A stretch of DNA of 64,000 nucleotides from Oceanispirochaeta crateris (lineage in GTDB: Bacteria > Spirochaetota > Spirochaetia > DSM-2461), in the NCBI RefSeq assembly GCF_008329965.1, contig NZ_CP036150.1, positions 3,886,439 through 3,950,438 of the forward strand. Reading direction: 5' to 3'. A program made the translations under genes and the position numbers. How positions within the stretch are numbered: the stretch's first letter is position 1; each line of letters begins with the position of its first letter. Under the pieces are notes generated by a model. It searched no databases. It was not told where the DNA came from and worked only from the letters and a program-made list of their open reading frames with translations. Positions 23,029 through 31,935 of the stretch are shown here, one piece after another.

Positions 23029-23208
23029 TATGACCTCTATATTTTATGCTGCCTAAAGACAGAGACTTTAGCCGGATGTAGAAATGTTGCCAAGGGAAAA
23101 TATTTTTTTCACCTTGTTACAGTTCTATTTTATAATATTTTTTCGATTAGTCAATGAAACTCTTTCATTTCTCTTTTTATTGTCCTTCGAAACGTAAATC
23201 GATATAAA

Positions 23209-23243: not shown

Positions 23244-23660
23244 ATGAATTTTGAGTACCAAGTGACCGGAGATGATTTTTCTCTAGCAGGACGAGCCTCC
23301 AGTGATATCAAGAAGAAGCTCAAACAGCTTGGTATTCCCTCATGCACAATTAAACGGACAGCCATTTCTATGTATGAGGCCGAAATCAATATGGTGATTC
23401 ACGCCGATGGGGGCAGCATAAGTATAAATATTGATGATGATATTATCAGCATAGTCCTTAAAGATACAGGCCCTGGAATTCCCGATTTAGCCTTAGCTAT
23501 GCAAGAGGGGTATACCACCGCGTCCGAAGCTGCCAGGGAGTTGGGTTTCGGCGCCGGGATGGGGCTTATGAATATTAAAAGAAATTCGGATAATCTAACT
23601 ATAGATAGTATTGTCGGGCAGGGAACTACAGTGACCATTCTGTTAAAGATAGGAGAGTAG
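23244..23660 (+). CDS. Anti-sigma-factor-like HATPase (RsbW/SpoIIAB type)
   Basis: A small GHKL ATPase of about 138 residues. The N box is AISMYEAEINMVIHADGG, the G1 box is LKDTGPGIPDLALAM and the G2 box is GFGAGMGLMNIKRNSDNL, with a short C-terminal strand. It lacks a receiver or sensor, so it resembles the anti-sigma kinases RsbW/SpoIIAB. It lies four bases upstream of a hydrogenase-like iron-sulfur protein; I know of similar ATPase genes beside putative sensory [FeFe]-hydrogenases in anaerobes. I infer that it carries a redox or H2 signal to gene expression. No cognate sigma or antagonist gene is next to it. Confidence 0.8.
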   Translation: MNFEYQVTGDDFSLAGRASSDIKKKLKQLGIPSCTIKRTAISMYEAEINMVIHADGGSISINIDDDIISIVLKDTGPGIPDLALAMQEGYTTASEAARELGFGAGMGLMNIKRNSDNLTIDSIVGQGTTVTILLKIGE

Positions 23661-23663
23661 GCT

Positions 23664-24968
23664 GTGGAAGATCATTATTTTCACTCAGTGACGTTGGATG
23701 CCAGTCTTTGCAAGGGGTGTACGGTTTGCATCAAAGGCTGTCCAACAGAAGCCATTCGGGTCCAAAAGGGACGGGCCTGGATTATTCCTGAACGCTGTAT
23801 TGATTGTGGTGAATGCATCAGAACCTGCCCCTCTGGAGCCAAAAAGGCTATTTCTGATCCTATTTCTCTTTTGGAACAGTTTGATTATTGTGTTGCCATA
23901 CCTGCTCCCACGCTTTATGGACAGTTCAGGGCGTCTGTTTCCTGTAATCGAATTCTAACAGCCTTGAAATCTCTAGGTTTTGATGATGTTTACGAAGTGG
24001 CAGCCGCCGCGGAAATCCTGAGTCACGAAACAAGAGACTTTTTGATCCAGAATAAGGGAAAAGGGACGTTTATCTCTTCTTCTTGTCCTGTTATAGTCAG
24101 GCTTGTAGAATCACGATTTCCGTCTCTTTTGGATCAACTTGTTCCCATGATTTCACCTATGGAACTCAGTGCCAGAATTGTCAAGGAACGTGAAAAGGAC
24201 AGGCCGGGGAAGGTGGGTGTATTCTTTATCTCTCCCTGTGCCGCGAAGGTGACTGATGTAAAAAATCCCAGAGGAATCACACACTCCTCTGTTGATGGTG
24301 TTATAGGCATTAAAGACATATACAAAGAATTGAAGTTAGCTGTTTCTCAAGTTGAAGAGGAAGAACCCCTGAATAAGGCTTCTGCCCTGGGAATTAGCTG
24401 GGCAAGAACCGATGGTGAAGGGGCCGCAGTCAATTCAGAGAATCACATCTCTGTAGATGGTATTGATCATGTCATTGATGTTCTGGAAAATCTGGAGAAC
24501 GGCCATATACGGGATGTAGATTTTGTCGAACTGATGAGCTGCCCAGGGGGATGTGTGGGGGGACCTCTCGCTGTAGAGAATCCATATGTTGCCCGGAGTA
24601 TCGTGAGCATTCGGGAAGGCAGGCACCGGGAAGAGGAAAGTCTTTCTTATGCAGAGTCTTTTCATCCGCCAAAAGGTGTTGATCTTTTATGGACCGAGCA
24701 GCTTGAAAGCAGGGCGACTCATCTGTTGGACCCTGATTATAAAACAGCCATAAAAATGATGGAAGAGATAGAAATCATCAGAAAGGGATTGCCTGGTCTG
24801 GACTGCGGCTCCTGCGGAGCCCCCAGTTGTAGGGCCCTTGCCGAAGATATTGTTTTAGGAAAAACAAGTGAAACCGACTGCGTTTTTAAATTGAGAGAGA
24901 AAATTAGAGATCTGACCCGGGAGATGATCCAGCTGGAAAGCAGGATGCCTCCGGGGCTGGATCGGTAA
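23664..24968 (+). CDS. Putative sensory [FeFe]-hydrogenase-like protein with ferredoxin and Fes domains
   Basis: 434 residues starting at a GTG with AGGAG upstream. Two [4Fe-4S] motifs lie at Cys16/19/22/26 and Cys45/48/51/55. The hydrogenase core keeps the four H-cluster ligands: Cys141 (SSSCPV), Cys192 (SPCAAK, with Lys195), Cys293 and Cys297 (MSCPGGC). The cysteine that relays protons in catalytic enzymes (first Cys of TSCCP) is Ser140 here. A C-terminal Fes-type cluster site follows (Cys381, 384, 389, 406). This pattern fits the group D, putatively sensory, class rather than a high-turnover hydrogenase. It is coupled to the HATPase upstream. No maturation genes (hydEFG) are in the window. 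Confidence 0.8.
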   Translation: MEDHYFHSVTLDASLCKGCTVCIKGCPTEAIRVQKGRAWIIPERCIDCGECIRTCPSGAKKAISDPISLLEQFDYCVAIPAPTLYGQFRASVSCNRILTALKSLGFDDVYEVAAAAEILSHETRDFLIQNKGKGTFISSSCPVIVRLVESRFPSLLDQLVPMISPMELSARIVKEREKDRPGKVGVFFISPCAAKVTDVKNPRGITHSSVDGVIGIKDIYKELKLAVSQVEEEEPLNKASALGISWARTDGEGAAVNSENHISVDGIDHVIDVLENLENGHIRDVDFVELMSCPGGCVGGPLAVENPYVARSIVSIREGRHREEESLSYAESFHPPKGVDLLWTEQLESRATHLLDPDYKTAIKMMEEIEIIRKGLPGLDCGSCGAPSCRALAEDIVLGKTSETDCVFKLREKIRDLTREMIQLESRMPPGLDR

Positions 24969-24982
24969 AAAGGATAGTTTTA

Positions 24983-25309
24983 TTGCTTACGGTTATAATC
25001 ATCATGATTCTGGGGATGGCTGCCGGTTATATGCTCAGAAAATTCAAAAAACTATATAACAGACTGGATAAGACCGTCAGTTATATCATTTATCTGCTGC
25101 TGTTTCTTTTGGGGCTTTCAGTCGGACAGAACCGGATGATCATCAATAGTTTTCATATTATAGGGTTAAAAGCACTCCTTATAAGCGCCGCATCTGTTGC
25201 CGGTTCAATACTGTTGGCTGCACTCGTCTTTCATTTCTTTTTTAAACATGACCATGTAGAGGCTTTGGATGATGGTGGCTTTTCACCAGAAGGTGATACC
25301 GGGGCATGA
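24983..25309 (+). CDS. LysO-family exporter, N-terminal part (split gene)
   Basis: A 108-residue membrane protein with three hydrophobic segments, matching the N-terminal DUF340 half of LysO (YbjE), a lysine exporter in E. coli. Landmarks are GYMLRKFKKLYNRLDKTVSYIIYLLLFLLG, then a histidine/acidic tail. The start is a TTG with AGGA upstream, 14 bases after the hydrogenase-like gene. Its stop overlaps the ATG of the C-terminal half (ATGA). Splitting of LysO into two genes occurs in several anaerobes. The substrate is inferred. Confidence 0.75.
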   Translation: MLTVIIIMILGMAAGYMLRKFKKLYNRLDKTVSYIIYLLLFLLGLSVGQNRMIINSFHIIGLKALLISAASVAGSILLAALVFHFFFKHDHVEALDDGGFSPEGDTGA

Positions 25310-25914
25310 AAAACAGTTTGATTATTTTATTGTTTTTTGTGCTGGGTGTTGGTGTCGGTGCCTGGGGTGAAGGAGGAGGATGGATTCCTGACGCCTTTGA
25401 CTCTTTGAGTACTTATGTCCTCTATGGTCTTATGGGCCTCGTTGGCTTTGGTATCGGGGGGGATACTCAGGCATTAAAGGTTTTGAAAGATACAAAGCTT
25501 AAGATCATGCTCGTGCCTCTCTCTGTGGTTATAGGTTCATTGGGAGGGGCTTCTCTCGTATATGTCTTTATAAAAGACCTGGACCTACAGGAAGTTCTGG
25601 CCATCAGTGCCGGGTTTGGCTATTATAGTTTATCCAGTCTGTTTATTACAGAATTAAGAGGCGAGGTACCCGGTACCATCGCGTTGCTCACCAATATTAT
25701 GAGAGAAATTATAACCCTCCTTATGACACCTCTATTTGTTCGCTGGGCAGGCCCTTTGGGTCCTATTGCTTCCGGGGGAGCAACGAGCATGGATACAACA
25801 CTGCCTATAATTTCTTTGTACTCGGGAAAGCAGTATGTCATGATCGCCCTGTTTAGCGGGATTGTTCTGACCGTGGTGGTTCCTTTTCTGGTTCCATTTA
25901 TTTTGAGCTTTTAA
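25306..25914 (+). CDS. LysO-family exporter, C-terminal part (split gene)
   Basis: A 202-residue polytopic membrane protein with about six helices, matching the C-terminal half of LysO. Conserved stretches are GFGIGGD, SAGFGYYSLSSLFITELRG, LLTNIMREIITLLMTPLFVRWAGPLGPIASGGATSMDTTLPII. With the preceding protein it should form one transporter for lysine or a related solute. The start overlaps the previous stop by four bases, so the pair is coupled. The operon with the redox-sensor genes may mean that export is tied to fermentation state; that is inference. Confidence 0.82.
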   Translation: MKNSLIILLFFVLGVGVGAWGEGGGWIPDAFDSLSTYVLYGLMGLVGFGIGGDTQALKVLKDTKLKIMLVPLSVVIGSLGGASLVYVFIKDLDLQEVLAISAGFGYYSLSSLFITELRGEVPGTIALLTNIMREIITLLMTPLFVRWAGPLGPIASGGATSMDTTLPIISLYSGKQYVMIALFSGIVLTVVVPFLVPFILSF

Positions 25915-26060: not shown

Positions 26061-26438
26061 ATGAAGACAGGTGACAGGGTAAAAAGCATAGCCTTACTAA
26101 CGGGGATCAGTTTTGTAATCGTATCTTTTGCTGTTGTGCTTACAGATTACTTATTTCTGAAAAATATCAGCATTCACTGGCTTCAGGTTGTCCTTATGGC
26201 TCTTATCAGTTCCATTCTGCTTACCCCCCTGTTTTATTGGTTGCGGTTGACCCTTGAAAATGGTGGTATTGAAGCCACTCAGCTGAGCAATCTCGAATTG
26301 AATGAACGAGATGTGAGAGAAGCGGTGAGTAACTGGGTTTACATTCATTACAATAAAAAGGTAGAAGGTGGCTTGGAGTTTTCAAGGGATGATTCGGGAG
26401 TTTTGAACTGCAAGGTGACCGTACGAAATGATTCCTGA
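26061..26438 (+). CDS. Small membrane protein of unknown function
   Basis: 125 residues, not recognised. Two hydrophobic helices (about 10-31 and 37-61) form a hairpin, followed by a polar C-terminal domain of about 60 residues (ERDVREAVSNWVYIHYNKK ... LNCKVTVRNDS). AAGGAGAAGG precedes the ATG, so translation is likely. It stands alone between the LysO terminator and the rRNA promoters. Confidence 0.6.
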   Translation: MKTGDRVKSIALLTGISFVIVSFAVVLTDYLFLKNISIHWLQVVLMALISSILLTPLFYWLRLTLENGGIEATQLSNLELNERDVREAVSNWVYIHYNKKVEGGLEFSRDDSGVLNCKVTVRNDS

Positions 26439-27014: not shown

Positions 27015-31775
<4,761 letters not shown>

Positions 31776-31825
31776 ATATTATTATTTGTCTCTTTAGTTA
31801 TATATAGCTGTGAGCGATCACAGTG

Positions 31826-31935
31826 ATCCGGTGATTTTAGCATTGAGGTTATACCCGTTCCCATCCCGAACACGGAAGTCAAGCTCAATCGCGCCGATGG
31901 TACTGCTACGGTGGGAGAGTAGGTCGTCGCCGGTT
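31826..31935 (+). rRNA. rrf: 5S ribosomal RNA
   Basis: About 110 bases with the conserved 5S core CCCGTTCCCATCCCGAACACGG and GCGCCGATGGTACTGC. The terminal stem CCGGTGAT/GTCGCCGG closes the molecule. It is preceded by the short dyad GATCACAGTGATC (31816-31828) and followed at once by a terminator. Confidence 0.93.

Follow-up and report, generated by a model that had tools for sequence, protein, structure and literature searches.

The window analyzed here (the whole stretch of 64,000 nucleotides of Oceanispirochaeta crateris DNA) contains two adjacent genes that encode a small GHKL ATPase, referred to as A, and a group D (M2e) [FeFe]-hydrogenase, referred to as D. Judged by gene order and co-occurrence across genomes, A and D are near-inseparable. 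We lean toward a model in which the pair forms an H2- or redox-responsive GHKL kinase that acts through DRTGG proteins and is tied to the bifurcating hydrogenase.

Results

A and D are tightly coupled genes

A is read on the + strand from an ATG at 23244 to a stop at 23660. D starts with a GTG at 23664, 3 bases after the stop of A and about 10 bases 3' of an AGGAG, and ends at 24968. Both ORFs are real and tightly coupled, with matches to Fe_hyd_lg_C (E = 1.7e-41) and HATPase_c (E = 6.1e-11) that are too strong to have arisen by chance. The original prediction had the coordinates of the two genes right, as well as the residue numbers in D, which are counted from GTG 23664. The features of the locus are as follows.

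23244..23660, + strand: A, small GHKL ATPase of 138 aa with a predicted SpoIIAB/RsbW fold (HATPase_c, E = 6.1e-11; SpoIIAB, Z 19.3; conserved columns).
23664..24968, + strand: D, assigned as a group D (M2e) [FeFe]-hydrogenase of 434 aa (PF02906, E = 1.7e-41; PF04060, E = 1.1e-12; tree, diagnostic columns, and model).
23709..23828, + strand: two N-terminal [4Fe-4S] motifs of D, C16 to C55 (from the translation; alignment-invariant).
24081..24086, + strand: codons 140 and 141 of D, with S140 replacing the group A proton-transfer Cys and the ligand C141 (column counts).
24804..24881, + strand: C-terminal Fes motif of D, C381-x2-C384-x4-C389-x16-C406 (PF04060, residues 376-408).
23108..23136, + strand: promoter-like site TTCACC-17-TATAAT, about 108 bases 5' of A (identified by consensus match alone; the region shows no clear excess of such sites over the shuffled expectation).
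24983..25914, + strand: two genes of the LysO/PF03956 lysine-exporter family, 14 bases 3' of D.

The LysO-family gene pair probably shares a transcript with D. In a gene-order comparison, these genes were kept almost only within the genus, and they are probably passengers of the A-D locus. The exporter is encoded by two adjoining genes in the window and by a single gene (308 aa) in locus L071. The window also encodes a 125-aa protein without any Pfam match (26061-26438), which is kept near the locus in 6 of 6 genus genomes and in L068, and a complete 16S-23S-5S rRNA operon lies just 3' of the A-D locus (27015-31935, +). The genome is a single contig of 4.01 Mb.

D is placed in group D by its diagnostic residues and by phylogeny

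The predicted D protein carries two ferredoxin clusters (C16/19/22/26 and C45/48/51/55) and a C-terminal Fes site (C381/384/389/406; PF04060, E = 1.1e-12), and its structure was modeled with a pLDDT of 89.4. The H-cluster ligands C141, C192, C293, and C297, together with K195, did not vary among the 103 group D sequences in the alignment. A domain search of the window protein found no PAS domain, which is present in the group C paralogue of the same genome. According to the published diagnostic rule for group D, C299 is replaced and M353 is changed to Ser or Thr (PMC8163306). D has Ser at position 140 (C299 of CpI) and Ser at position 190 (M353 of CpI). Both are typical of the 103 group D proteins, 96 of which carry Ala or Ser at the former position and all of which carry Ser or Thr at the latter. 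Moreover, D carries the proton-path residues E252, T249, D265, and E289, in the numbering of TamHydS from Thermoanaerobacter mathranii, which we transferred via the papers and an alignment with Thermoanaerobacterium and not via the TamHydS record. With the exception of E289, this path is reported to be exclusive to group D (PMC10407848). In the same genome, E252 is absent from the group C, A, and B paralogues, and D265 is absent from the C and both A paralogues. Since the group D proton path is present in D, Ser140 and Ser190 are ordinary group D features.

We then built an H-domain tree of 138 sequences (FastTree, SH-like support), which includes the Thermoanaerobacterium operon protein L107 and not TamHydS itself. 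The tree put D, along with the group D operon protein of Thermoanaerobacterium, inside a group D clade that numbers 103 sequences and has an SH-like support of 0.996. Group C was the sister of the group D clade, and groups A and B fell outside. The tree bears out the expectation that D belongs among the sensory hydrogenase groups and, together with the diagnostic residues, assigns it to group D (M2e). The D proteins of L074, L075, L076, L077, and L079 formed a divergent spirochaetal sub-clade in which the group A proton-transfer cysteine is replaced by Tyr or Phe (YCP/FCP).

Five H-domain genes were found in the genome: two of group A (L021, passing NF040763 and TIGR02512, and L020, passing TIGR02512), one of group B (L022, passing TIGR04105), one PAS-bearing member of group C, and the window D. 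The search for maturases suggested by the original prediction recovered HydG, HydE, and HydF in the complete genome (C1:673-679 kb), all above equivalog cut-offs, which rules out that they are missing. The presence of the maturases and the placement of D in a sensory group leave the original prediction standing on both of these points.

The group C PAS-HydS of this genome (L020:10990-12720, -) overlaps a SpoIIE-type phosphatase gene (L020:9816-10997, -) in an HfsB/HfsC-like manner, and the region of the two genes (L020:9315-12720, -) lies beside a hydCBA and NADPH-oxidoreductase-like operon. Group C HydS/HfsB with the SpoIIE-type phosphatase HfsC, as in T. maritima, Ruminococcus albus, and Thermoanaerobacterium, belongs to the sister clade of group D, and has the same Fes domain and a regulatory partner gene alongside. 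It differs in that PAS is present, the E252/D265 path is absent, and the partner is a phosphatase, whereas the partner of group D is a kinase-like ATPase. The genome would thus have both phosphatase-linked and kinase-linked sensory hydrogenases.

Like TamHydS, D has two [4Fe-4S] clusters, an H-domain, and a C-terminal Cx2Cx4Cx16C motif (PMC8163306, PMC10407848, PMC13104023). The two proteins also share the change of M353 to Ser, the missing C299, the E252/S-T249/D265/E289 path, the lack of PAS, and a histidine-kinase-like ATPase gene as a neighbor. However, D is spirochaetal and about 45 to 53% identical to clostridial members, has Ser140 where the Thermoanaerobacterium relative has Ala, and is encoded away from hydABC and DRTGG genes, with LysO-family genes on its 3' side. 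TamHydS catalyzes reversible H2 turnover (PMC8163306) at a very low specific activity (PMC10407848); a protein with the same residue features as D is a working though slow enzyme. In the original prediction, low turnover had been argued from Ser140 and Ser190. This argument did not hold up, as both residues are common across group D, and hence not specific, and the replacement proton path is intact.

A resembles SpoIIAB in predicted fold and differs from it in sequence and in probable partners

The model of A (pLDDT 87.5) matched SpoIIAB with a Z score of 19.3 (rmsd of 1.9 over 132 residues) and RsbW with a Z score of 15.2, and this predicted fold agrees with the earlier description of A as a SpoIIAB-like ATPase. 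The likeness to these anti-sigma kinases covers the whole domain and extends to the ATP site. E45, N49, D74, G76, G78, and G103/G105/G107 were invariant in the aligned relatives covering them, and the positions of the catalytic Glu and Asn of SpoIIAB align and are conserved. Conversely, identity is only about 27%, A scored 52.6 bits against the SpoIIAB equivalog TIGR01925 (cut-off, 135), its family has its own conserved, longer lid motif (AMxEGxSTA...GFGAGMGLPN), and the candidate partner genes encode DRTGG proteins rather than STAS or sigma factors. By these measures, A is not SpoIIAB itself.

The original prediction had proposed an anti-sigma partner switch as the output of the pair. In the classical form of such a switch, A would be the anti-sigma factor and kinase for a STAS anti-anti-sigma protein, a SpoIIE-type phosphatase would reset the system, and D would control A. 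The fold of A and its conserved catalytic Glu and Asn are consistent with this role, and the genome-wide search called for by that proposal did return candidates, six STAS and six SpoIIE matches, all unlinked to A-D. However, no STAS- or SpoIIE-like ORF was detected near 102 group D loci, using own-genome seeds and flanks of up to about 8 kb, a search that can miss distant relatives. Furthermore, the TIGR01925 score and the longer lid set the A family apart, and the partner that is co-inherited with the ATPase is DRTGG, as described below. The openly licensed literature on anti-sigma factors with sensory FeFe hydrogenases yielded nothing relevant. We regard a STAS/SpoIIE switch as an unlikely role for A.

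A adjoins D in nearly all group D loci

We searched 61 Spirochaetia genomes with D alone. In 22 of the 22 loci with sufficient flank, A was directly 5' of D, and outside the genus almost no other neighbor of A-D was held in common. Using a D profile on 80 named genomes, several of them from Spirochaetes, and after correcting ORF-calling errors, we found the pair in 76 of 79 informative loci. Overall, A adjoins D in 98 of 101 loci, from comparison genomes many of which are incomplete drafts. Six loci came without a called pair; L080 and L088 do have A, L104 is cut by a contig end, and L118, L119, and L155 have no adjoining A, which is located elsewhere in each of these genomes. L118 and L119 are from Anaerosolibacter and have a DRTGG gene directly 5' of D. 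No A-D gene fusion was found among the group D loci.

Co-occurrence was equally strict. Small A was present in exactly the D-bearing genomes of Spirochaetia (24 of 61, with G009 counted by partial, contig-edge matches), and small A and D were found in the same 32 of 36 genomes of the class of Thermoanaerobacterium. Linkage and co-occurrence together support the earlier proposal that the hydrogenase and the ATPase work as one unit. The histidine-kinase-like ATPase beside the T. mathranii group D gene was already reported by Land et al. (PMC8163306); what is new here is that the adjacency is near-universal.

The ATPase family is associated with DRTGG proteins and, in Clostridia, with hydABC

The 80 named loci, mostly from Clostridia, displayed the arrangement DRTGG1 - A - D - DRTGG2 - PHP - hydC - second GHKL ATPase - 2Fe-2S protein - hydB - hydA, where 71 loci have an adjacent DRTGG1, 61 an adjacent DRTGG2, and 63 an adjacent PHP. 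The A-D genes are inside the hydABC operon in Clostridia; in Spirochaetia, they are mostly far from it. Natural DRTGG1-A fusions of 269 aa, directly 5' of the group D HydS gene, were found in Tepidanaerobacter sp. GT38 and a Thermosediminibacteraceae MAG (L124:6163-6972 and L148:6149-6958, +). Longer A ORFs in L097 and L102 were rejected as fusions, being run-on start choices with no DRTGG match in frame. In some Spirochaetia, a REC-like receiver-domain protein is encoded directly 5' of A, in the place of DRTGG (L069:9412-9798, -, and L091).

In the genome studied here the module is dispersed, and A-D shows no linkage to DRTGG or hydABC. A CBS-CBS-ATPase of 312 aa, DRTGG2, and PHP are encoded together (L163:6961-8904, -; G000:C1:3355961-3357904), about 6 kb from hydC of the bifurcating hydABC operon. 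This ATPase has the same kinase domain as A and represents a second copy of the kinase module. The orthologue of the DRTGG1 gene found 5' of A-D in Clostridia, which scored 134 versus 59 bits with the two DRTGG profiles, stands alone among unrelated neighbors (L164:6667-7008, -; G000:C1:734667-735008). Three other genomes (G007, G011, and G012) keep A-D and both DRTGGs, have no CBS-ATPase, and carry DRTGG2-PHP beside hydABC.

The CBS-ATPase also occurs in relatives that lack group D. Of the 61 Spirochaetia genomes, 44 encode small A or the CBS-ATPase, and DRTGG matches were obtained in all 44 and in 0 of the 17 others; the ATPase family is present in 20 families and wholly missing from 10. Strong DRTGG1 was found in the same 32 of 36 genomes of the Thermoanaerobacterium class. 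These co-occurrences partly reflect operon linkage and shared ancestry, of which they are not independent. Since DRTGG accompanies the CBS-ATPase in D-less genomes, the distribution ties it to the ATPase family and not specifically to D. Searches of the openly licensed literature for DRTGG with hydrogenase, or for TamHydS with ATPase, returned nothing relevant.

These associations bear on two other roles for the pair. A could be an assembly or activation factor for D, that is, a chaperone-like, non-signalling GHKL ATPase involved in cluster insertion or a conformational step. Such a factor would be expected to adjoin D strictly one-to-one, as A does. However, the same ATPase family is fused to CBS in genomes without group D, and to DRTGG, and active TamHydS holoenzyme was made from purified apo-protein and synthetic cofactor (PMC8163306). 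The exchange of CBS for D speaks most strongly for D as an input module and against A as its maturation factor, and we find the assembly role quite improbable. Alternatively, D could be a slow metabolic hydrogenase, with A tuning D or HydABC directly and without a signal relay. The reversible turnover of TamHydS (PMC8163306), the intact proton path of the window protein, and the location within the clostridial hydABC operon agree with this. Yet no redox-partner gene is constant, the sole constant neighbor is the kinase-like ATPase, the pair is mostly distant from hydABC in Spirochaetia, and TamHydS has a very low specific activity (PMC10407848). We give little credence to a purely metabolic D.

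Asp31 and Ser34 were invariant in 78 of 78 DRTGG1 and 67 of 67 DRTGG2 sequences, which makes Ser34 a candidate acceptor, although it could equally be structural rather than a phosphoacceptor. DRTGG1 gave weak PDB matches to the regulatory region of the CBS-DRTGG family II pyrophosphatase (3l2b, 3l31). CBS and DRTGG are likewise combined there; here, CBS is fused to the GHKL ATPase, DRTGG is separate or ATPase-fused, and there is no pyrophosphatase domain. These matches, and the fusion of the paralogous ATPase to a CBS pair, would suit DRTGG proteins that are nucleotide-binding adaptors (for adenylates or Ap4A, as in the CBS-DRTGG pyrophosphatases), modulated by binding of A-D and not substrates of A. 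Against this, the ATP-site Glu and Asn of A are conserved and Ser34 is invariant, which leaves room for phosphorylation, and we judge the adaptor role to be doubtful.

Discussion

The original prediction thus stands as to the sensory placement of D, the maturases, the fold of A, and the paired unit, and is not supported as to the low-turnover argument and the STAS/SpoIIE switch. We favor, on balance, a kinase that signals through DRTGG proteins. According to our model, A-D is a two-piece H2/redox unit, in which D would be the sensor and A its dedicated GHKL protein-kinase-like ATPase. Binding of H2, or reduction, at the H-cluster and the N-terminal clusters would change the shape of D. In TamHydS, H2 changes the secondary structure and leaves the C-terminal cluster unreduced (PMC13104023). 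The change in D would be read through a putative A-D contact and alter the ATP-dependent activity of A, which may phosphorylate or bind the small DRTGG-domain proteins that would relay the signal. The hydABC neighborhood in Clostridia suggests that the most plausible target of the relay is the bifurcating hydrogenase HydABC, or redox balance generally. The sensory role of group D is itself a published hypothesis for TamHydS and is not new here.

CBS domains can act as adenylate sensors. The CBS-pair paralogue may therefore represent the same kinase core with another input, probably adenylate sensing, in place of D. We tentatively propose, with less assurance than the A-D model itself, that a GHKL kinase and its DRTGG partners together constitute a signalling core that differs from SpoIIAB-STAS switches and has an exchangeable input (H2 through group D, adenylate through CBS). 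Both kinases of this genome could then converge on the same two DRTGGs and set redox and hydrogenase output.

The literature has yet to explain how group D hydrogenases relay an H2 signal. The sole characterized group D enzyme has no PAS domain, its protein partners in the native host are poorly characterized, and a route through its C-terminal cluster has lately been discounted (PMC13104023). Gene linkage, fusions, and co-occurrence point to a concrete partner, the adjoining ATPase, and to a candidate target, DRTGG with its invariant Ser34, so that the relay can now be addressed experimentally, both with purified components and in genetically tractable Thermoanaerobacter relatives.
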